From Bradyrhizobium sp. AZCC 2176 (GTDB taxonomy: Bacteria > Pseudomonadota > Alphaproteobacteria > Rhizobiales > Xanthobacteraceae), in contig NZ_JAZHRX010000001.1 of the NCBI RefSeq assembly GCF_036924645.1, positions 4,243,501-4,307,500 on the forward strand: DNA of 64,000 nucleotides, given 5' to 3'. Below are positions 21,712 through 33,718 of the stretch, piece by piece (position 1 is the first letter of the stretch; every line of letters starts with the position of its first letter). A model generated the notes under the pieces. The model was not told the DNA's origin, searched no databases, and was given only the letters and a program-made list of their open reading frames with translations. The translations under genes and the position numbers were made by a program.

Positions 21712-22020
21712 ACCGTCATCCTGACATTCAGGTCCGAGGGCATAGGGCCGGAATTAAATATAGCAGCCCTTTCCAGATCCAGCCAGCAGCAGCAGCGCGT
21801 TGCAGTCAGATCCGAGGCTCATCCGCTCGTCGCAGGTATATTAAATGGCCCGAAACGGACCTATCGTCCCTTCGGCTATTTTCGGCACCAGTTTTTCCCG
21901 GGCCGTCAGTCCGCGCGCCTGCCGGGTTCCGGCCGATTTACTGTCGATTAACTATGATGTTTTACCAAATATTTACGCGCCAAAAATTGCCCACGGTGCG
22001 AAGCTGTTTGGGGATTTTAT
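21712..22020. promoter_or_regulatory. Upstream region of gspD
   Basis: About 310 bp with no supportable gene. It becomes AT-rich from about 21940 to 22020 (tttaccaaatatttacg), consistent with a promoter for the gspD-lipoprotein pair, though boxes cannot be fixed. Confidence 0.4.
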
Positions 22021-24300
22021 TTGTTACTTTCTCGCAGCCTTGCGACGAGATTAGCCGCCAGTTGGGCGGCAATACTCGTTGTGTCGGGCTGCACCACCTC
22101 CACCACGACGCCTTTAACGACGGTGTCGCAACCCAGATTGACGGCGGGACAGCCGGTCTCCCTCGAACAGACCTACGCGTATGACGGCGGCCCCACCGGC
22201 GCCGTGCCGCTTCCGTCCCCCTCGTCACCGGCAGTTGCCGTCATGGATGGCGGCAATGGCAGCATGATCGGCGGGACATATTCGAAGCGGAAGTCCGCCG
22301 GCACCGACGGGAACGTGGTTCTCAATCTGGCGAGCGTTCCGCTTCAGCAAGCCGCCAAGACCGTTCTCGGCGACATGATCGGCGTGAACTACGTCGTCGA
22401 CCCGCGCGTCGACGGAGTCATTTCCGTGCAAACGACGCGTCCGGTCAGCAAGGCCGAAGCGATGGAGATGTTCCAGACCGCGCTGGTGCCGATCGGCGCG
22501 GTGCTGGTGCAAAGCCGCGGCACCTACCGGATCGCGCCGGCCGACCAGGCGGCCACGGGCGTGATCGCGACCGGCGATGGTCCGGCCGAGAGCGCCATTG
22601 CCGGCAACGGCATTCGCGTCGTTTCCCTGAAATATGTTTCCGCCACCGAAGTCGCCCGCGTGCTGGAGCCAATGGTGCCGAAGGGCGCCATCGTCCAGGC
22701 CGACGACGCGCGCAACATTCTCGCGCTCAAGGGCTCGCCGGCGGAAATCGAAAGCATGCTCGACTCGATTTCGGTATTCGATGTCGATGTCATGAAGGGC
22801 ATGTCGTTTGCCGTCGTTCCGGTGAAAACGCCCCAGCCGGAAAAAATGGTCGACGAACTGAAGGCGATATTCGCGGCCGAGAAAGAGGGGCCGCTCAAGG
22901 GCCGCGTCAGGTTCATCGCAAACACGCGGCTTGGTGCCATCCTGGTTGTGACCTCGCAGCCGAGCTATCTGCCGAGGGCGCAGACCTGGATCAGGCGGCT
23001 CGACGCCAAGGCGGCCGGCTCCGAGCGTCAGCTTCACGTCTATCAGGTCCAGAACCGGCCCGTGGCGGAGCTCGCAAGCGTCCTGCAGTCGATGTTTGCG
23101 AATGAAATGAAAGTAGTGAAGCCGCCGACGCGCAGCGTTTCCCCGCGGTCGAAGCAGGCGAGCTTTTCCGGAAGCTCGGCAAGATCGCCCGGAACGGGCG
23201 GCGCGACTCCGGATATCGATCAAGGCGCGGCTATCGGGCTTCGCGGTGTAAGTCCCGGCAACGATCTGCAAAGCCTGCAGCGTGCGCTGAACAACGAGCC
23301 GGATGCATTGACGCCGGATTCGATGGAGCCGTCTTCGTCGCCTTCGTCATCCAACGGGGCGGTCGGCGAGCCGCCGCTCAAGATCGTGGCGGATGAAACG
23401 AAAAACTCGCTCCTCATCATGGCCAATGACCGGGACTACCAGCGCGTGCTTCGCGTCATTCAGGGGCTCGATGTCGTCGCAAGCCAGGTGTTGATCGAGG
23501 CTGTCATCGCGGAAGTGGTGCTTAACGACAAGCTGCAATATGGCGTGCAATGGCAACTGTCGAAAAAGGGAACGCCGACCGCTTCGTTCTCAAACGCGCT
23601 GACCGGCGGCGTGGCTTCGGTGTTTCCCGGTTTCAACTATGCCGTCAACGCCGCGAGCATCGCGTCGACGCTCAGCGCGCTGAACGCGCTGACACGCGTC
23701 AACGTCATTTCGACGCCGTCGCTGATGGTGCTGGACAACAAGACGGCGAGGCTGCAGATCGGCGATCAGGTGCCGATCACCACGCAGACCGCCACCAGCA
23801 CGGTGACGGCCCAGACGGCGATCGTCAATTCAATCACCATGCAGGACACCGGCGTGATCCTGTCAGTGACGCCGCGCATCAATGAAAGCGGCAGGGTGCA
23901 GCTCGAGATCGAGCAGGAAGTCAGCGCCGTGGTGAAAACCACGTCATCCGGGATCGACTCGCCGACCATTCAGCAGCGGCGTGTGAAGACCACCGTCGTC
24001 GTCAACGACGGCGAGGTGCTGGCGCTTGGCGGCATGATCCAGGAACAGGCCAACAAGACCAGTAACCAGATCCCGCTGCTCGGCGACATACCCGGGCTTG
24101 GCGCTGCGTTCTCCAACCGGGGCGACCAGGTCCAGAAGACCGAGCTCGTCATCCTGATCACGCCCAAGGTCGTCCGCGACGGCACGGAAAGCCGTCTCGT
24201 GACGGAAGAATACCGGCGCAAGATGCATGTCTACATGCCGCACACGACCTCGCGCGAGCGTTCGCCGGCCAATACGATGCAGCGGATGATTTCACAGTGA
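22021..24300 (+). CDS. gspD: Type II secretion outer-membrane secretin GspD
   Basis: A protein of 759 residues with a lipoprotein-type signal (LVVSGC, Cys about residue 24), periplasmic N0/N1/N2-type repeats (for example VPLQQAAKTVLGDMIGVNYVVDPRV and IRVVSLKYVSATEVARVLEP), a Ser/Gly-rich linker, and the C-terminal secretin core (NVISTPSLMVLDNKTARLQIGDQVPI, then LGGMIQEQANKTSNQIPLLGDIPGLG). It forms the outer-membrane pore of the type II system. TTG 22021 is the start that gives the signal peptide. It lies 6-8 kb from the other gsp genes. Confidence 0.93.
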   Translation: MLLSRSLATRLAASWAAILVVSGCTTSTTTPLTTVSQPRLTAGQPVSLEQTYAYDGGPTGAVPLPSPSSPAVAVMDGGNGSMIGGTYSKRKSAGTDGNVVLNLASVPLQQAAKTVLGDMIGVNYVVDPRVDGVISVQTTRPVSKAEAMEMFQTALVPIGAVLVQSRGTYRIAPADQAATGVIATGDGPAESAIAGNGIRVVSLKYVSATEVARVLEPMVPKGAIVQADDARNILALKGSPAEIESMLDSISVFDVDVMKGMSFAVVPVKTPQPEKMVDELKAIFAAEKEGPLKGRVRFIANTRLGAILVVTSQPSYLPRAQTWIRRLDAKAAGSERQLHVYQVQNRPVAELASVLQSMFANEMKVVKPPTRSVSPRSKQASFSGSSARSPGTGGATPDIDQGAAIGLRGVSPGNDLQSLQRALNNEPDALTPDSMEPSSSPSSSNGAVGEPPLKIVADETKNSLLIMANDRDYQRVLRVIQGLDVVASQVLIEAVIAEVVLNDKLQYGVQWQLSKKGTPTASFSNALTGGVASVFPGFNYAVNAASIASTLSALNALTRVNVISTPSLMVLDNKTARLQIGDQVPITTQTATSTVTAQTAIVNSITMQDTGVILSVTPRINESGRVQLEIEQEVSAVVKTTSSGIDSPTIQQRRVKTTVVVNDGEVLALGGMIQEQANKTSNQIPLLGDIPGLGAAFSNRGDQVQKTELVILITPKVVRDGTESRLVTEEYRRKMHVYMPHTTSRERSPANTMQRMISQ

Positions 24301-26617: not shown

Positions 26618-27832
26618 TCAAGCATCGAGCTCTCGCTCCAGCGGGTTCTCTTGCACGTCGAGCCGCATTACGTACAGCGTTGCAAGCAAGGCCATTCCCG
26701 AGGACAGGAGCATCATTGCTAACAGGGTTGGGGCCGCATTCGCTTCGGTCAGAACCGCGCCCGTGATTGCCGACAGGAGTGCCCCGCCGCCCATCGTCAG
26801 CGCAGCCGACAGCCCCGACGCGCTGCCTGCAAGTTCTGACCGAACAGAGACGACACCGGCATTGCTGCTCGGGATCGCCAATCCGTTGCCGAGACCAACG
26901 CAGGCACAGGCGCCGAAATACATCGGCAAATTCACCGCGTCATAGAAGCAAAGCAGGATTCCCAAAACCAGGCCCACACACGCCACCAATCCGCCCATCA
27001 GCATCATCGTCGTGAGCCCATAACGTTCGGAGAAGCGGCCGCACAGAAAGCTGCCGAGAACAAAACCGACCGTGATGGTTCCCATATAGAAACCGAGCTC
27101 CGCGGTGGAAATCCGGAACGTGGAGACAGCGACAAGCGACGCTCCGCCAATGAAGATGAAGAACGCCCCCCGGGAAAACGTCATGCACAGCGCGTAACCC
27201 CAAAAACGCCCAGATCCCACGAGCTTCGCATATGATCGAAATTGCCGCGCAAACGTAGCCGCGGGTGTTTTGTTGGTTTCCCGCAGATCGAGCCAGCACA
27301 GCGCGAGGGTCGCGCCGCCCATGACGAGAAAGGCCCAGAAACTGGCCCGCCATCCGTACAGCTCATCGAGTGTACCACCCAGCATCGGGGCCAGCATGGG
27401 AGCGACGGCCGAGGCCATTGCCACGTAGCCGATGGAGCTTGCAGCTTTGTTGCCTGCGGAGAAATCCCGAATAATGGCGACCGAAACGGCGTAAGCAGGG
27501 GCGATGACCGCCTGCATCATGCGGAAGGCGAGAAACACCCAGACGTTGGCCGCCAACAGGCAGCCCAGCGAGGCGACGAGGAAAAGCAGCAGGGCGGCAA
27601 GGATCACAGGTCGCCTGCCGAAGCGATCCGACAACGGCCCCATCACGAGCTGCAGCAAGGCGCTCACGGCCGCGTATACGGCGATGCATAGATTGACGAG
27701 CGCATAGTCCGCCTGAAACTCATGGGCGATGTTTGCCAATGAGGGCAGGAACATGTTGAGAGATACCACCGACAGACCGCTCAGCGCGATCAAGGTCATC
27801 AGGGCCGGCGGGTCTGCGGCTTTCCCTGGCAT
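26618..27832 (-). CDS. MFS exporter, Bcr/CflA-like drug resistance family
   Basis: A protein of 404 residues with twelve predicted membrane segments and the major-facilitator motif A (GPLSDRFGRRPVILAALLLF) between helices 2 and 3. The start MPGKAADPPALMTLIALSGLSVVSLNMFLPSL fits Bcr/CflA antiporters, which export small molecules such as bicyclomycin, chloramphenicol or amino-acid-like compounds. A leader-peptide attenuator lies directly upstream (27877-27978). About 45 bp separate the terminator hairpin from the ATG. Substrate is unknown. Confidence 0.88.
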   Translation of the reverse strand: MPGKAADPPALMTLIALSGLSVVSLNMFLPSLANIAHEFQADYALVNLCIAVYAAVSALLQLVMGPLSDRFGRRPVILAALLLFLVASLGCLLAANVWVFLAFRMMQAVIAPAYAVSVAIIRDFSAGNKAASSIGYVAMASAVAPMLAPMLGGTLDELYGWRASFWAFLVMGGATLALCWLDLRETNKTPAATFARQFRSYAKLVGSGRFWGYALCMTFSRGAFFIFIGGASLVAVSTFRISTAELGFYMGTITVGFVLGSFLCGRFSERYGLTTMMLMGGLVACVGLVLGILLCFYDAVNLPMYFGACACVGLGNGLAIPSSNAGVVSVRSELAGSASGLSAALTMGGGALLSAITGAVLTEANAAPTLLAMMLLSSGMALLATLYVMRLDVQENPLERELDA

Positions 27833-27876: not shown

Positions 27877-27905
27877 AAAAAAAAGCCCCCGAACTTGTCG
27901 GGGGC
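27877..27905 (-). terminator. Intrinsic terminator of an attenuator, before the MFS gene
   Basis: On the minus strand an 8-bp stem (GCCCCCGA / TCGGGGGC, arms 27898-27905 and 27885-27892, 5-nt loop) is followed by eight T residues at 27884-27877. Its 5' arm overlaps the arm of an alternative hairpin (27903-27911 with 27939-27947), so both cannot form together. It lies 45 bp upstream of the exporter ATG, so it would stop transcription before the gene. Confidence 0.85.
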
Positions 27906-27947
27906 GCACGGGGTACCGGCATGGATGCCGTTACCGGTCCATGCGCC
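27903..27947 (-). promoter_or_regulatory. Candidate antiterminator hairpin
   Basis: In the minus-strand transcript GGCGCATGG (27947-27939) can pair with CCGTGCGCC (27911-27903, one G-U pair), extended by ACCGG (27938-27934) with CCGGT (27919-27915). The 3' arm shares three bases (27903-27905) with the terminator stem, so the two folds compete. The 5' arm lies inside the leader-peptide reading frame, so ribosome position would decide the fold. Confidence 0.65.
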
Positions 27948-27978
27948 AGCGCCCTACTACGACGGTTGCGATCGTCAT
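27931..27978 (-). CDS. Leader peptide, 15 residues, Val-rich
   Basis: ATG 27978 to TAA 27931 encodes MTIATVVVGRWRMDR. Three consecutive Val codons (GTC GTA GTA) precede Gly-Arg-Trp-Arg. The frame ends just before the alternative hairpins, the normal layout of a transcription attenuator controlled by ribosome stalling. Val codons would suggest sensing of charged tRNA-Val, but a translation-inhibitor sensor is also possible because the regulated gene is an MFS exporter. No strong ribosome site is visible upstream. Confidence 0.65.
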   Translation of the reverse strand: MTIATVVVGRWRMDR

Positions 27979-28053
27979 CTCAAATATCTCTAATGATCTA
28001 CGCCCAGTGTAGAAACTCGCTCCGTGAGTGTCAACGATCGGCTAGCGCCACGT

Positions 28054-28728
28054 CTAACACCGAACTGATATTTCCAAGCCACCTTGGAAGGGCAGTGTCA
28101 TTGTGGTGAAGCTGTTGGCTGGATCATGTAGAAACGCGAAATAGTCAGCATAAAACCCCCGATGTTGTTTGGTGTTGTCGCACACCACAACCGCGCCTTG
28201 TGAAAGATGTGGCGAAATCAATTCTAATGCAGGTCGCGCCATCGCGATCCAAACATCCATTAGGACGAAGTCGATTGGCCCATCGATCTGCTTTAGGGTT
28301 TCGCGAAGATCGCCTACTCGCAGTTCGATAAAACTACTCAATCCGGCTTGCGCGAAATGTGCCCGTGCAGCCGCCGCTTTGCTTGGCTCATATTCGGTCC
28401 CAATGACCACTCCGTTGCCACCGAATGCATTAACATTGTCGCGCACGGCTGCAGCGAGGTAGATGGTCGACACACCGTACGACGTGCCAACCTCGATGAT
28501 CTTGGAGACTTTTTTCGCGCGGCATAGCTGGTAACAGAACTCCGCCTTGTCGCGATCAAGTGCAACGAGCTTGTCGCTCCGAAAGGCCCTAATTTCTTCT
28601 GCGCTTGGAGAAAGCTCGCTGCTGTCCCGTTTTGCCTCGAATGCCTGGATCAGTGCGGCCTGCTCGTCGCTCTTCGCGTGAAGAGCATCAAGGAAGTCCT
28701 GCAATGCCTGATTGGCAAGTACGGTCAT
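28054..28728 (-). CDS. SAM-dependent methyltransferase, O-methyltransferase-like, TPP-controlled
   Basis: A protein of 224 residues: about 70 helical N-terminal residues, then a class I methyltransferase fold with KIIEVGTSYGVSTIYLA (SAM motif I), VIGTEYEPSKAAAAR (motif II acid) and DFVLMDVWIAM. The arrangement recalls the O-methyltransferase family 3/YrrM group. Its ribosome site, GGGAG, is part of the 3' end of a TPP riboswitch, so translation should fall when thiamine pyrophosphate is plentiful. The natural substrate is unknown; the control suggests a link to thiamine or its precursors. Confidence 0.85.
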   Translation of the reverse strand: MTVLANQALQDFLDALHAKSDEQAALIQAFEAKRDSSELSPSAEEIRAFRSDKLVALDRDKAEFCYQLCRAKKVSKIIEVGTSYGVSTIYLAAAVRDNVNAFGGNGVVIGTEYEPSKAAAARAHFAQAGLSSFIELRVGDLRETLKQIDGPIDFVLMDVWIAMARPALELISPHLSQGAVVVCDNTKQHRGFYADYFAFLHDPANSFTTMTLPFQGGLEISVRC

Positions 28729-28731
28729 GGT

Positions 28732-28812
28732 CTGCTCCCTTCGCTGGCATTACCCAGACAGGTTCAACGGGTGTGATCTCAGCCCGCGTCAAACGGGCAC
28801 CCCGGACGCGCC
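28732..28812 (-). promoter_or_regulatory. TPP riboswitch (THI box)
   Basis: Read on the minus strand, the conserved blocks appear in order: GGGGTGCCC, GGGCTGAGATCACACCCG, TTGAACCTG, TCTGGGTAATGCCAGCG and AAGGGA. These are the P2/P3 and P4/P5 cores of the thiamine pyrophosphate riboswitch, including CUGAGA and the GCGnAGGGA end. The last block doubles as the Shine-Dalgarno site of the methyltransferase ATG at 28728, so ligand binding should hide it. No T-tract terminator lies between it and the gene, which favours translational control. Confidence 0.95.
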
Positions 28813-29144
28813 AACGTTTCAGGTCAACGTATAGCCGTCAAGCATCGCGGTCAGAATGTCTCTTGTGGGTCAAACGCGTCATTTTGGCACCTTGCCTTCA
28901 ACTTCCGGGTCGCCCCCTGGAACGCACATGGCACCGATACCCAGGGTGGTTCGGTGCCATGTCCATGGAAGCACATCGAGACGCCCGCGACATCGGAAAC
29001 AGCTCCTTTGAGCGCAGTGCCAAATCGTAGGCAGTCGAATATTCTCGGGTTACGGCATGAGATAGGTTGCGACTTCATAGCGCCACGGCGAAGCAGTAGT
29101 GCCCATCTTCGTCGGCCGTGGCGCCCTACTGTCGATGCGGAAGC
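28813..29144. other. Gene-free region upstream of the riboswitch
   Basis: About 330 bp between the riboswitch and the 3' end of gspK. It should contain the promoter of the riboswitch transcript on the minus strand. I see no gene, and no terminator for gspK can be named with confidence. Confidence 0.4.
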
Positions 29145-30059
29145 TCAGCTTGCGGCTGCTTCGCGAACGCGCAGGCACGCGCGCGACGTGTCTTGCGGGC
29201 GTTCCGGCCGCGAGCTTGATGGATCGATATCCCCGCGCCGCCATTCGCGAATGACGTAGGGGCGACCGTTTCCGCCCTCCAGCGAGACCAATGCCTCCCG
29301 GATGAAGCGCGTGCCGTCCAAGGCGCTGATATCCGCGCGGATGGTCATGCTGCCGCCCAAGGGCAGCCCTCGTTTGGCGTTCGTCTGCTTCAGTTCGACG
29401 TTGAGCAGTCTCAGCAAGGCGGGGGAGGCGGCTTCCATGTCCGGCTCCGGCCGCCCGGAGCGAACGGTGACGTGGCGAAGCGCTGCCCGAAACAATCGGG
29501 GCGACATGCCGTCGAGCTGATCCAGTTGCATCACGGTGGTGAAGCGTGCCTCGGCAGGCGCTGCGCTCGGCGTGCCCTGCGCCTTCGGTATGCGGAATTC
29601 GGTGATCTGCGCGGCGATGCGCATGCCCCTCGACTGATCGCCGGTGAGCGCGGTGAAGAGGCGGGTCAAGGCGGCCGGGCTCGCCGTGTTCAGGTCGATT
29701 TTTCCGGTCTCTTCCTCGACCGTGATCGTGGCGCGTTCGCCGCCGGGCAATTGGCACCGCAACGGAAAATTGACGGCTTGTTCGGGTGTTGTGGCCAGCG
29801 CCGCGGCGATTGCCAGGTTGACGGCGCTCTCTGCCGCCATCTCGGCTGCCGCGACCGAGGCGTAGTTCGACGATGTCTTGGTGCGGTAACGCGCGCCGAC
29901 GATGACCGCCATTCCAAGCAGCGTAATCAGGCCCAATGTCCAGATCACGGCAACCAGTGCGAAGCCCGATTGTCTGGCCCTAGCGCGGGGCAAAGAAGGG
30001 CATTCCGGCCGGCCAGGGACGGCAAATCGGTTCGTTCGAGCCTTTCGCCGGTTTGCCAC
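29145..30059 (-). CDS. gspK: Type II secretion minor pseudopilin GspK
   Basis: A protein of 304 residues with a basic leader, then the prepilin-like cleavage site and helix G/FALVAVIWTLGLITLLGMAVIV. A SAM-like helical domain contains KIDLNTASPAALTRLFTAL, typical of GspK. It caps the pseudopilus tip with GspI and GspJ. It starts at GTG 30059 and is divergent from gspE, whereas gspK normally follows gspJ on the same strand. The long C-terminal basic segment (RPERPQDTSRACLRVREA) looks unstructured. Confidence 0.88.
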   Translation of the reverse strand: MANRRKARTNRFAVPGRPECPSLPRARARQSGFALVAVIWTLGLITLLGMAVIVGARYRTKTSSNYASVAAAEMAAESAVNLAIAAALATTPEQAVNFPLRCQLPGGERATITVEEETGKIDLNTASPAALTRLFTALTGDQSRGMRIAAQITEFRIPKAQGTPSAAPAEARFTTVMQLDQLDGMSPRLFRAALRHVTVRSGRPEPDMEAASPALLRLLNVELKQTNAKRGLPLGGSMTIRADISALDGTRFIREALVSLEGGNGRPYVIREWRRGDIDPSSSRPERPQDTSRACLRVREAAAS

Positions 30060-30217
30060 GTCGATAAGCCTTGCTGGGACGGCCAGGCGGCCTGACCTCG
30101 CGTCATCAGCCGATATTTACGCAGGAATGGCAAACAAAGCGTCAAACAGCTTGTGTTAATCAAAACCCCCTAGAATCGCGCCGACGGAGAAGCCCCGCGA
30201 GACCGCCGAGCGCGCGA

Positions 30218-31999
30218 ATGTCATTCGATATCCAGCAATTGTTGCGCCCGGCCGCGCCTTCGAGCCGGGGAACGGAATTGCCGAGGCCACGGGACGCCGG
30301 CTTCGCGCAGGCGTTCTCCGACCTTCTGGTCGGCAAGGACATGGTCGATCCCGCCGCGATCGGCCGGGCCCGGCGGGCCGCAGAAGCTGCTTCCGAGCGT
30401 TTCGATCTTGTGCTGGTCAAACTGGGCCTGATTTCCGAGGCCGACCTCTGTCTGGCCTATGCCACCTATTGCGGTCTGCCACTGATCGAACCTGTGGATC
30501 TCCCGGCCAAGCCCGTCCTGGCGGACCGCTTGCAATTCTCTTTCCTCAAGACCAACCGGATCCTGCCGATCTCGTTCGACGGCCGGCGCCTGTTGATCGC
30601 AACCGCCGATCCCTTTGTCGATGAGTCCGTACAGGCCATCAGCTACATGCTCGACGTGCCCGTCGATCTCGCCGTGATCGCGCCGGCGGAAATCGAGCGC
30701 GCCTTGCGGACGCTGTATCAGGACGCAGCGTCCGAGACGCACGCCGAGGAGACTGACGGCATCGCGATTGCCGGCAACGACGGCAGCGAATTCGACGTCG
30801 AGCGCCTGCGCGATATCGCCAACGAAGCGCCGGTCATCCGGCTGGTCAACCAGATCATCGCGCGAGCCGTCGAGCGCGGCGCGTCCGACGTGCACATTGA
30901 ACCCGGACGCGATGCTGTCGCCGTTCGCTACCGCATCGACGGCTTCCTGCAGCAGGAGCGCCTCGTGCCGGCGACGCTGCGGGCCGCGCTGACGACGCGC
31001 ATGAAGATCATGGCCAAGCTTGATATTGCCGAGCGGCGGCTGCCGCAGGATGGCCGCATCAAGACCGTGGTGCGCGGCGTCGAGATCGACATCCGTGTCT
31101 CGACCTTGCCGACGGTATTCGGTGAAAGCGTCGTGATGAGAATTCTCGACCGAACCCGGGTGGAGCTCGACTTCACCAAGCTCGGGCTAGACGGCAGGAC
31201 GCAGGAATGCCTTCAGCGCCTGATGGCGCTTCCGAACGGCATCATCCTCGTCACCGGCCCAACCGGCAGCGGAAAGACGACGACGCTCTACACCGCCCTG
31301 AAGGATCTCAACCGCCCCGAGCTAAAACTGTTCACCGTGGAAGATCCGATCGAATATCAGCTCTCCGGAATCAACCAGATCCAGGTTCAGCCGCAGATCG
31401 GTCTCGACTTCCCAACGGCGCTTCGCTCGATCCTGCGCCAGGATCCGGACATCGTTATGATCGGCGAAATCCGCGACCTCGAAACCGCGCGCATCGCCAT
31501 CCAGGCGGCGCTGACCGGCCATCTGGTGTTCTCGACCCTGCACACCAACAGCGCGATTGCCGCGATAACGCGCCTGATCGATATCGGACTGGAACGTTAT
31601 TTGCTCGCCTCGACGATTGCGGGCGTGATGGCGCAGCGTCTGGTCAGGAAGCTTTGTCCCGTCTGCGCGCGATCGCATAGCAACAGCGAGCGGGCGCATG
31701 GCAAGCTCAAGATGGCGATAGCAGGCAATCCGCGAATAGATTGGTCGCACAGCCGGGAGCCGGTCGGCTGCGATGCGTGCGGCAACACCGGTTATAGCGG
31801 CCGCACCACGATATCGGAGCTGCTGGTCATCGATGACAGCGTCCGCGAGGCGATCGGACGCAGAAGCCAGGACCAGCGCGCGGTCGAGCAGTTGGCGCGC
31901 GAAGCAGGCTTTCACACGCTCTACGAGGATGGCCTGCTGAAGGTCGGGGCCGGCGAGACTTCGCTCGAAGAAGTTCTTCGCGTCACCCGCGCGTCCTAA
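30218..31999 (+). CDS. gspE: Type II secretion ATPase GspE
   Basis: A protein of 593 residues. An N-terminal GspE domain (residues 30-150) is followed by the ATPase core: Walker A GPTGSGKTTT, the Asp-box ELKLFTVEDPIEY, Walker B IVMIGEIRDLETA and the His box TGHLVFSTLHTN. A zinc-binding tetracysteine pair (CPVC and CDACG) is present. It drives pseudopilus assembly from the cytoplasmic face. ATG 30218 was chosen because the family N-terminus starts here; the frame is open to 30071 in non-family sequence. It heads the gspEFHIJ run. Confidence 0.94.
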   Translation: MSFDIQQLLRPAAPSSRGTELPRPRDAGFAQAFSDLLVGKDMVDPAAIGRARRAAEAASERFDLVLVKLGLISEADLCLAYATYCGLPLIEPVDLPAKPVLADRLQFSFLKTNRILPISFDGRRLLIATADPFVDESVQAISYMLDVPVDLAVIAPAEIERALRTLYQDAASETHAEETDGIAIAGNDGSEFDVERLRDIANEAPVIRLVNQIIARAVERGASDVHIEPGRDAVAVRYRIDGFLQQERLVPATLRAALTTRMKIMAKLDIAERRLPQDGRIKTVVRGVEIDIRVSTLPTVFGESVVMRILDRTRVELDFTKLGLDGRTQECLQRLMALPNGIILVTGPTGSGKTTTLYTALKDLNRPELKLFTVEDPIEYQLSGINQIQVQPQIGLDFPTALRSILRQDPDIVMIGEIRDLETARIAIQAALTGHLVFSTLHTNSAIAAITRLIDIGLERYLLASTIAGVMAQRLVRKLCPVCARSHSNSERAHGKLKMAIAGNPRIDWSHSREPVGCDACGNTGYSGRTTISELLVIDDSVREAIGRRSQDQRAVEQLAREAGFHTLYEDGLLKVGAGETSLEEVLRVTRAS

Positions 32000-32015
32000 A
32001 GGGAGCACCGAGCCC

Positions 32016-33281
32016 TTGGCAACTTTTCACTACAAGGCGTACACGGAACGAGGCGCGGTCACGGCAGGGACGATTGTTGCCGAAGGGCTCGATGCGGCCG
32101 TCGACGCGCTCTATGGCTCGGGGCTGACGCCGTTCGAAACCTACGGCGTGGCCGACCGGACGGCGGAACGACCGAACCTTTCATCGATTTCGTCGCGAGA
32201 CGCCGAAACGTCGATCTGGAAACGCGAACTCGTTCAGTCAAACCGCTTCAGCCTGAAGGAGCTGACAGCGTTTACAGTTGAACTGGCTTCGCTAACCAAT
32301 TCCGGGCTGACGCTCGATGCCGCATTCCGGATCATCGCAGGGCCGGGCGCTGCGCCGAAAACCGCCCGTCTTGCCAACGGGCTTCTCAAGGACGTGCTGG
32401 CCGGATTGCAACTTTCGGAAGCGATGGCGCAACGGCCGGATGTGTTTCCATCGGACTATCGGGCCATTCTGGCCGCCGGCGAAGCCGGAGGGGTTACCGG
32501 GCAGGTCCTCAAGCAGATCGCCGAATTGCTGGCGCGCCGGCTCGAGATCCGCAACAAGATTGCGTCGGCGCTCGTCTATCCCATGATCCTGATCCTGATG
32601 TCGCTGGTATCGGTCGTGGTCATCGTGTTCGTGCTGATACCCAGCATCTCGCCCATCTTCGTCGATGCGGGCCTGCCGCTTCCCGGTATCCTGCATTTCT
32701 TCGAGGAGATTCAGGATAACTGGCTGATGGTCCTGCTGGCGATTGCTCTTTGCGGCGCAGCCGGTTTCGTATTGTGGGGCAAGGCGAAGCAAAATCCGGA
32801 AGTCATGCTCGGCGCCGATCGTTTGAAATGCTCGCTGCCGGTGATTGGTGCGCTGATTCGAAACCGCGAGGCCGGAGGCTTTGCGCGGGCGCTCGGCACG
32901 CTGCTCGTCGCAAGGGTGCCGTTGATGTCCGCGATGCAAACCGCGCGGGCGCTGGTTACCAACCGGCACCTGAATGCGCTCTACGAGGCCGCCATCAAGC
33001 GTGTTCCGGAAGGCACGCCGCTGCACCGCGCCTTCGAGGGGGACGGTCTGTTGCCGCCCGCATCGCTTCGTCTCGTGGCCGTCGGAGAGGAGTCCGGTCA
33101 GCTCGGCCTCATGCTCATTCAGGTGGCCAGCGTGATCGAGGCCGACCTGCAGCGCCGCATCGAACGCATGGTCGGCCTGCTGACGCCGGCTTTGACGCTT
33201 CTCATCGGCGGAAGCATCGGTGGGCTCATCATGCATGTGATGAGCGCCGTGCTGTCGATCAACAATCTCGCATTCCAATGA
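32016..33281 (+). CDS. gspF: Type II secretion inner-membrane platform protein GspF
   Basis: A protein of 421 residues starting at TTG 32016 (MATFHYKAYTERG) behind AGGGAG. It contains two repeated GspF domains (FTVELASLTNSGLTLDAAFRI and RALGTLLVARVPLMSAMQ) and three membrane helices, including YPMILILMSLVSVVVIVFVLIPSI and the C-terminal LTLLIGGSIGGLIMHVM. It anchors GspE and the growing pseudopilus in the inner membrane. Its stop overlaps the gspH start by 4 bp. Confidence 0.93.
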   Translation: MATFHYKAYTERGAVTAGTIVAEGLDAAVDALYGSGLTPFETYGVADRTAERPNLSSISSRDAETSIWKRELVQSNRFSLKELTAFTVELASLTNSGLTLDAAFRIIAGPGAAPKTARLANGLLKDVLAGLQLSEAMAQRPDVFPSDYRAILAAGEAGGVTGQVLKQIAELLARRLEIRNKIASALVYPMILILMSLVSVVVIVFVLIPSISPIFVDAGLPLPGILHFFEEIQDNWLMVLLAIALCGAAGFVLWGKAKQNPEVMLGADRLKCSLPVIGALIRNREAGGFARALGTLLVARVPLMSAMQTARALVTNRHLNALYEAAIKRVPEGTPLHRAFEGDGLLPPASLRLVAVGEESGQLGLMLIQVASVIEADLQRRIERMVGLLTPALTLLIGGSIGGLIMHVMSAVLSINNLAFQ

Positions 33282-33718
33282 AACGCCCCGCACGATCGTC
33301 AGCCGGGTTCACGCTGGCCGAATTGCTGGTGGTCATCGGGATCATCGCGCTCGTCCTTGCCGGCACGCTGTCCGCCAAACCGAAGGCCGTGGCCACGCGT
33401 GTCGCCGTTACTGCCCGCTCTGTTACGGCGACGCTTCAGCTTGCTCGTGCGCAGGCGATGTCGAGCAATGCCGAAACGCTGTTCCGGCTCGACGTGGAGA
33501 AAGGCCGCTTCGGCTTGCCGAATTCCATGCACAGTATGCCGCGCGGAATGATTGCCGCGGTGGTAGTTGCCGAGACGGAGCGCTCAGGCGAGCTTGGCGG
33601 TATCAGATTTTACCCGGACGGCCAGTCTTCCGGCGGCGAGATCGCGCTGATGCTGGAGGGGCGATCGGCGCGCATCGCCGTCAACTGGCTGACCGGCGAA
33701 CCACGGTTGATCCAATGA
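33278..33718 (+). CDS. gspH: Type II secretion minor pseudopilin GspH
   Basis: A protein of 146 residues from ATG 33278 (ATGA overlap with gspF). The class III leader MKRPARSSAG is followed by FTLAELLVVIGIIALVLAGTL, with the conserved Glu at +5. The C-terminal beta part IRFYPDGQSSGGEIAL is GspH-like. It is cleaved and N-methylated by the prepilin peptidase, then packed near the pseudopilus tip. Confidence 0.9.
   Translation: MKRPARSSAGFTLAELLVVIGIIALVLAGTLSAKPKAVATRVAVTARSVTATLQLARAQAMSSNAETLFRLDVEKGRFGLPNSMHSMPRGMIAAVVVAETERSGELGGIRFYPDGQSSGGEIALMLEGRSARIAVNWLTGEPRLIQ

Follow-up and report, generated by a model that had tools for sequence, protein, structure and literature searches.

A predicted valine-codon attenuator of the ilvI family upstream of a Bcr/CflA-type transporter gene in Bradyrhizobium and other Alphaproteobacteria

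Introduction

The systems closest to the element reported here are the attenuators in front of the acetolactate synthase genes ilvB/ilvI of Alphaproteobacteria, which Vitreschak et al. reportedly described in 2004. Leader peptides can also respond to antibiotics: in cmlA and erm leaders the drug stalls the ribosome on the leader peptide, and in cmlA-type leaders this drug-dependent stalling works through translation attenuation. Excerpts of two studies (PMC4117421, PMC1273637) show that ilvB/ilvI attenuators of Alphaproteobacteria, such as that of Caulobacter ilvBN, are already in print, and an excerpt of a third (PMC6123439) describes the E. coli ilvBN leader as a peptide of 32 amino acids with 11 branched-chain residues. 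In the open-licence literature that we searched, including excerpts of PMC3738593, PMC1273637, PMC4117421, PMC8632094, PMC10117765, PMC6123439 and PMC7298713, we found no valine attenuator in front of an MFS transporter.

We analysed a stretch of 64 kb (the window) from the 7.15 Mb single-contig genome of Bradyrhizobium sp. AZCC 2176, where an element of this type precedes the gene of a Bcr/CflA-family MFS transporter. It is of the classical attenuator kind, but unusually it stays attached to one transporter clade and its codons are shifted towards valine. In our reading it is very probably a ribosome-mediated transcription attenuator, belonging to the sequence family of the ilvI attenuators, that ties expression of the MFS gene to the supply of valyl-tRNA; this confidence covers the attenuator and the valine cue, not the role of the pump.

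Results

A leader ORF, two stems and a T-run precede the transporter gene

All parts of the locus lie on the minus strand. A consensus scan found a sigma-70-like promoter, TTGACA-17-TACACT (28006..28034), which would drive the leader transcript. The leader ORF has 15 codons (MTIATVVVGRWRMDR*, 27931..27978), with its ATG at 27978, its stop ending at 27931, and three valine codons in tandem, GTC GTA GTA. The 5' arm of the antiterminator (GGCGCATGG, 27939..27947) overlaps leader codons 11-14, and from 27947 to 27939 it pairs at 9 of 9 positions with the 3' arm (CCGTGCGCC, 27903..27911, read from 27911 to 27903), whose final 3 nt also form the terminator base. The intrinsic terminator (GCCCCCGACAAGTTCGGGGGC and then T8, 27877..27905) has a stem of 8 bp, 7 of them GC, that extends from 27905 to 27885, and the T8 runs to 27877. 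The regulated gene (26618..27832, ATG at 27832) encodes a Bcr/CflA-family MFS transporter of 404 aa, as judged from TIGR00710, PF07690 and a tree. A possible protector hairpin, ATGG-A-CCG-GTAA-CGG-CAT-CCAT (27921..27942), would hold the stop codon in its GTAA loop.

The first-pass annotation had read here a 15-codon frame with three valine codons, a terminator with eight T and then an MFS gene, all of which we recovered on the minus strand. It had also claimed two mutually exclusive hairpins: both are present, but they share only 3 nt (27905..27903), so that the exclusion is confined to the base of the terminator, and in the lowest-energy fold of the window the terminator co-exists with part of the antiterminator helix. 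Among the features of ilv-class attenuators, the locus has tandem control codons, an intrinsic terminator, an alternative stem overlapping both ORF and terminator, and fixed spacing; it departs from that class in that the regulated gene is an MFS transporter and not a gene for biosynthesis of the sensed amino acid.

Upstream of the leader lies the ORF of a class I methyltransferase (PF13578, 28054-28728, minus strand), and the 3' end of a TPP riboswitch (RF00059, 61.7 bits, 28719-28814, minus strand) covers its ATG; to our knowledge a methyltransferase is an unusual target for a TPP riboswitch. Among the loci compared, this methyltransferase matched no other genome, only loci of the same genome. 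The genes at about 22000-24300 and at 29145-33700, which we take to be type II secretion-like (gspD-, gspK-, gspE- and gspF-like), flank hydrolase, MFS and methyltransferase genes, as if the latter had been inserted within the cluster.

The element is conserved in relatives

A scan for the layout (a stem of at least 7 bp with T6, preceded at 10-60 nt by the end of a 10-30-codon ORF) gave 2 places in the 64 kb window, whereas 60 dinucleotide shuffles averaged 0.017. The second place (around 12295) is presumably, from its motif, the C-terminal end of a PEP-CTERM-type protein, and because it also fits the scan, layout alone is not proof. Alignment with relatives is the stronger proof. An MFS homology scan provided 58 loci. 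When upstream regions were scanned for a terminator plus an ORF, 22 of the 58 showed the layout, as did 2 Burkholderia loci, which makes 24 loci outside the window with the same ORF and stems before the MFS gene. They include Bradyrhizobium, Kiloniellaceae, Pelagibius, Rhodospirillales and Sneathiellales, and the layout was absent in most Rhodobacteraceae homologues of that scan. The nearest named relative for the window's MFS, Bradyrhizobium sp. sGM-13 (L011; 89% identical), has a leader peptide identical to that of the window. A DNA search found no copy of the element in the 35 other genomes of the genus that it covered (35/35). Judged by these comparisons the element is real and widespread, in many Alphaproteobacteria and two Burkholderia.

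We aligned 41 copies, 37 before MFS genes and 4 before ilvI. Columns 1-42, from the valine codons to past the stop, are gap-free in all 41 rows; since rows from the layout scan were trimmed at a constant distance from the stop, this is evidence for the spacing between valine codons and stem, not for the cut. Counting from the stop, position -10 is valine in 32 of the 41 copies (29 of the 37 MFS rows), position -9 in 29 (28 of the MFS rows) and position -8 in 29 (26 of the MFS rows), and the valine codons change synonymously, with GTC, GTG, GTA and GTT all used. Adjacent valines were found in 39 of 44 V-type MFS leaders, the pair being absent in the other five (L012, L023, L095, L097, L098). 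Moreover, 21 of 43 MFS copies and 20 of 21 ilvI copies have a TTGAC box at a distance of 30-75 nt upstream of the leader ATG, whereas three control windows gave one in 5, 0 and 2 of the 43 and in 1, 1 and 0 of the 21.

The stems are kept as well. Across the 41 rows, 90.5% of antiterminator cells and 95.4% of terminator cells are paired. Covariation is weak for the antiterminator, as 38 of 500 shuffles reach the observed score, and better for the terminator (1 of 500). In two copies (L078, L171) both sides of the antiterminator have changed bases and the pairing is kept, and the real arm pairs at 8 or 9 of 9 positions in 60 of 68 copies, whereas three control leader arms do so in 0, 1 and 1 of 68. 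The protector hairpin, with 7 of 7 pairs in the window, has 3 to 7 of 7 across the 41 rows and is thus unevenly conserved. Covariance matches below 33 bits were taken as chance (L079-L083, L099-L100, L133-L137), with the exception of L078 (31.7 bits), which has both MFS and leader. Frame and stems are therefore conserved in relatives, which is the check that the first-pass annotation had proposed, and the attenuator withstands it.

By eye, the leader frame of Rhizobium etli IE4803 (L208) is shifted after the branched-chain codons and overruns the usual stop; L224 is a near-copy of this locus in the MFS and element trees, and its shifted frame is taken from that kinship.

The same element precedes ilvI in other Alphaproteobacteria

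With covariance model R1, 9 of 397 genomes of the window's order scored above 50 bits, its own included, and the eight others all carry the match before an MFS gene. Across the class, 16 of 385 genomes did so, again counting its own, with 11 matches before MFS genes and 4 before the acetolactate synthase large subunit, and these four loci all belong to one family (f74). In the order of that family, covariance model R2 found the element in 222 of 244 genomes, covering 95 of 100 genera. In our reading this order is Rhodobacterales, since its MFS copies cluster tightly with plasmid copies of Leisingera, Phaeobacter and Roseobacter. There, all 51 of the best-scoring loci examined precede ilvI (acetolactate synthase). 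More generally, every R1 or R2 match above 40 bits at the loci examined stands before an MFS gene or ilvI, and a draw of 398 genomes across the phylum gave, above 40 bits, the window's own genome and 23 of family f74.

Two matches were present in 13 of the 244 genomes. Both copies were read in five of these, and in all five one precedes ilvI and the other an MFS gene (L166-L175), two of the five (G1341, G1323) being near-identical there; for the remaining eight, one copy was read each, always before ilvI. The window's own genome has a separate leader before ilvI, MRNIITKLLIVVVPTRTAGGG*, which contains Ile, Leu and Val codons and goes unrecognised by R1 (9.6 bits).

The V-type transporter leaders favour valine

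The codon at -9 encodes valine in 35 of 44 V-type MFS leaders, and in the ilvI leaders of the order taken as Rhodobacterales it encodes Ile or Leu in 20 of 24 and Val in 3. Leucine occurs within residues 2-11 in 13 of 39 V-type MFS leaders versus 37 of 38 V-type ilvI leaders. From these two counts, the signal of the V-type MFS leaders looks to be mainly valine. The contrast is weaker in Rhizobiales, where Leu is present in 5 of 6 Atu_C8-type MFS leaders and 27 of 27 ilvI leaders; Val is commoner in the former than in the Rhizobiales ilvI leaders, but since 5 of the 6 keep Leu and all 6 have Ile, valine would not be the sole cue there. Fisher tests of V against I+L between MFS and ilvI leaders gave p = 6.3e-5 for the V-type and p = 0.043 for the Atu_C8-type, with relatedness ignored. 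The sample for residue composition comprised 39 V-type MFS, 38 V-type ilvI, 6 Atu_C8-type MFS and 27 other ilvI leaders (26 Rhizobiales loci and the one of the window's own genome), and omits near-duplicates and leaders with no clean frame. Valine as the likely cue, as first proposed, thus gains support, also from the occurrence of the same element before ilvI in other Alphaproteobacteria.

Rhizobiales transporters carry an Atu_C8-type leader

The Rfam family RF02502 (Atu_C8) matches the window element at 30.2 bits (E 1.7e-4), below its gathering threshold of 50. It matches the MFS leaders of Rhizobium and Phyllobacterium at 89-113 bits: 91.4 bits in Rhizobium pisi, 97-112 bits in R. etli IE4803, R. 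gallicum, R. lusitanum, Rhizobium sp. BG4 and Phyllobacterium sp., and 89 and 113 bits in Rhizobium sp. Kim5 and CC1099. Altogether ten Rhizobiales MFS loci have an Atu_C8-type leader, and on the seven Rhizobium and Phyllobacterium plasmids examined the Atu_C8 element is the leader of the MFS gene.

A search of 199 Rhizobiales genomes with Atu_C8 gave a match in 99, above threshold in 27; 29 of the 30 loci examined from it precede ilvI and one (L181) precedes an MFS gene. Where second copies were found, one genome (G221) has ilvI and MFS, and another (G161) MFS and ilvI. This suggests that the Atu_C8 'sRNA' of Rfam is an ilvI leader in most loci examined, and the RF02502 entry may deserve a cis-regulatory label. 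The second copy of a third genome (G058) had been predicted to precede an MFS gene and was found before a second acetolactate synthase that shares 75% identity with the first; its leader (MKIAMVLAVVIGRMGRMV, L230) is almost the same as the Rhizobium MFS leaders.

The element tree, built on few columns, has a 98% split that separates Rhizobiales ilvI and Rhizobiales MFS leaders from the other ilvI and other MFS leaders, and an AU test did not reject a single clade of all MFS elements (p 0.27). In the MFS tree the Atu_C8-type transporters are nested inside the V-type ones, which points to a probable replacement of their leader by the local ilvI type, and exchange of leaders between ilvI and MFS genes is likely on this phylogenetic evidence. 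Leaders may thus be swapped between a biosynthetic gene and a transporter, or may arise anew before both.

The leader-bearing transporters form one clade

The window's MFS scores 211.8 bits against TIGR00710 (Bcr/CflA efflux MFS; cut-off 200.9) and 183.7 bits against PF07690, in agreement with the earlier proposal of a leader-peptide attenuator upstream of a Bcr/CflA-type MFS. Its best NCBIfam matches are efflux families, namely Bcr/CflA multidrug (169.5 bits), CmlA/FloR (137.5) and EmrD (124.4), and PunC follows at 115.8 bits. Efflux is a family annotation, and the superfamily also holds importers, so that the direction of transport is putative.

We built an MFS tree of 95 rows by a quick method, with three E. 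coli outgroup proteins, leaving out L022 and L210 (short or in pieces), L062, L065, L067, L068, L074, L172 and same-genome repeats. All leader-bearing rows fall in one clade of 58 (support 91), in which 51 rows have a leader (42 window-type, 9 Atu_C8-type), one has a TPP riboswitch and six have none; many of these rows were found through the leader search, so the shares within the clade are not a survey. No leader was found by R1 or R2 in the 34 non-outgroup rows outside the clade, and the Atu_C8 model gave nothing at threshold in 36 of the 40 rows called leaderless, those to which it was applied.

The gene is, on its distribution, accessory: 24 of 24 other genomes of the genus that were searched gave no match at E<=1e-60, and it occurs on plasmids, as seen among the 20 of 46 matched rows that were examined. 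A neighbourhood comparison of 25 loci (24 with a leader, and L057) found the MFS gene and overlapping frames in common; beyond the MFS, the only ORFs shared among the 15 clusters listed were those of L007-L008, and of L012, L013 and L022 at differing places. On a Leisingera caerulea plasmid (L217) the leader-MFS unit lies near an annotated chloramphenicol phosphotransferase and a GNAT acetyltransferase.

In two loci a TPP riboswitch directly upstream of the MFS gene replaces the attenuator: before the orthologous gene on pAt2 of A. tumefaciens Sta004 (L009, 1299-1415, 74.6 bits), and in Mesorhizobium mediterraneum R31 (L210, 1306-1422, 75.4 bits), where the MFS gene matched in three pieces and is possibly broken. 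In another locus (L231) a gene at 3-1694 that we take to be dxs-like, and so another TPP enzyme, stands directly before the leader-MFS unit; it matched no other locus compared and was set aside as incidental.

A stalled ribosome would leave the antiterminator free

The ORF, the stems, their spacing and conservation, and the sharing of the element with ilvI can be read directly from the DNA; from them we infer a stall, antitermination and a valine cue. Transcription would start about 20 nt before the leader ATG, going by the promoter. With tRNA-Val charged, a ribosome at the stop codon would hide 27947..27939 and block the antiterminator, and the terminator would then end transcription upstream of the MFS gene. 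With slow decoding of valine, the ribosome would pause at codons 6-7 and 27947..27939 would stay free, in which case the antiterminator could form first and take the base of the terminator, and the MFS would be made.

If the edge of the ribosome footprint is taken to lie 15 nt past the first P-site base, a ribosome at Val -11, -10 or -9 does not reach the antiterminator arm; one at -8 covers three of its bases, and one at the stop codon all of them. Pair probabilities of the antiterminator were computed for the 41 copies in the transcript before the terminator 3' arm. Stalls at Val -11 to -9 give a mean of 0.81, with all 41 copies exceeding 0.5; a ribosome at -8 gives 0.42 (above 0.5 in 23 of 41) and one at the stop codon, by construction, 0. 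With no ribosome the mean is 0.70, and since the antiterminator also forms in this state in 34 of 41 copies, the protector hairpin is only tentative.

Equilibrium folding gave a different picture for the terminator base. Averaged over 44 MFS copies its probability is 0.80 ribosome-free, 0.86 and 0.89 stalled, and 0.995 at the stop, and in the window the values are 0.96, 0.74 and 0.85, and 1.00, so the stalled state is not below the ribosome-free one in the 44-copy mean but is below it in the window. Since the terminator is on average the preferred equilibrium fold in all of these states, antitermination could work only kinetically.

Discussion

If the valine cue is right, a transporter annotated as a drug exporter would be under direct control of amino-acid supply in many Alphaproteobacteria, reaching Burkholderia, and compounds that starve the cell of valine would offer a handle on the purpose of an orphan Bcr/CflA pump. 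What the pump does is a separate question. We give about even odds to the hypothesis that it removes a compound that lowers the supply of valine or the charging of its tRNA, in which case the attenuator would sense the damage and not the compound. Induction by valine shortage argues against export of valine itself, and export of Val-related compounds, which the first-pass annotation had raised as a possibility, is conjectural. A narrower version, in which the circuit senses damage from natural poisons of valine synthesis that hit acetolactate synthase or its cofactor thiamine diphosphate, is unlikely; it would make the attenuator and the TPP riboswitch two unrelated sensors for one pump clade, and it draws on the riboswitches before the MFS genes of Sta004 and R31 and on acetolactate synthase being an enzyme that needs thiamine diphosphate.

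The main rival to export of a valine-depleting compound is import, which we regard as possible but doubtful. Under the same valine attenuator, the transporter would scavenge valine, a valine precursor or a valine-containing peptide, and induction by shortage suits such uptake better than it suits valine export. In its favour, the NCBIfam matches include PunC, an E. coli relative whose annotation is purine nucleoside transport, and FslD, annotated for rhizoferrin import, although the efflux families score best, and an accessory gene that occurs on plasmids suits resistance better than housekeeping uptake. Neither of these two objections is decisive.

It is very unlikely that the leader is instead a drug sensor, on whose peptide a ribosome-targeting antibiotic would stall the ribosome and so induce the pump. 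Phenicol exporters are among the NCBIfam matches, any slow translation would open an attenuator too, and the Arg-Trp-Arg of the window peptide recalls the Arg-Leu-Arg motif that an excerpt of PMC8632094 names for antibiotic-resistance leader peptides. However, residues -5 and -6 vary, the conserved C-terminal residues of the V-type leaders coincide with the RNA stem, and the Atu_C8-type leaders of the same pump end differently (GRMGRMV, RRMGTAA). Conserved stall-site residues, beyond those given by RNA pairing or codon identity, were found in neither the V-type nor the Atu_C8-type copies. Synonymous change of the valine codons and the presence of the same leader before ilvI also speak against it. 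The response to ribosome-targeting inhibitors that the first-pass annotation had offered as an option has accordingly lost ground, the C-terminus of the peptide changing between lineages while the branched-chain codons stay. A role mainly in trans is the most improbable, whether as a small RNA, the type under which Rfam lists the weakly matching Atu_C8, or as a leader peptide like S. meliloti peTrpL, which according to an excerpt of PMC7298713 acts in trans on an efflux operon, since the copies above noise at the loci examined lie directly upstream, and on the same strand, of ilvI, the second acetolactate synthase or an MFS gene, which is a cis position; cis and trans roles can coexist.

The attenuator read here as sensing valyl-tRNA can be set beside several known systems. 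With the S. meliloti peTrpL/SmeAB system it has in common an amino-acid attenuator linked to drug efflux in a rhizobium, but that peptide acts in trans on another operon, as the excerpted text has it (PMC7298713), whereas the attenuator of the window would act in cis before its transporter. In the inducible cmlA-type leaders of phenicol exporters, too, a short leader ORF precedes a pump from this superfamily; the codon choice of the window leader and its kinship with ilvI leaders point instead to tRNA charging. In E. coli ivbL-ilvBN a leader peptide gene precedes acetolactate synthase by annotation, a likeness in layout. The E. coli K-12 locus (L206) also has emrD, a member of the MFS superfamily to which the window's transporter belongs; it starts some 0.9 kb away from ivbL on the opposite strand, istR, tisB and ysdE lying in the interval, and we attach no meaning to this arrangement. 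Compared with the Atu_C8 'Rhizobiales sRNA' (RF02502), the window element has the same layout and stands on the other side of the main split in the element tree. Like it, the alphaproteobacterial ilvB/ilvI attenuators have a leader ORF that contains branched-chain codons, together with an antiterminator/terminator pair, and the ilvI attenuators of Rhodobacterales, the order as taken here, belong to the same sequence family. The window element differs from them in controlling a transporter, and the V-type leaders in being mostly valine and not mixed Ile/Leu/Val.
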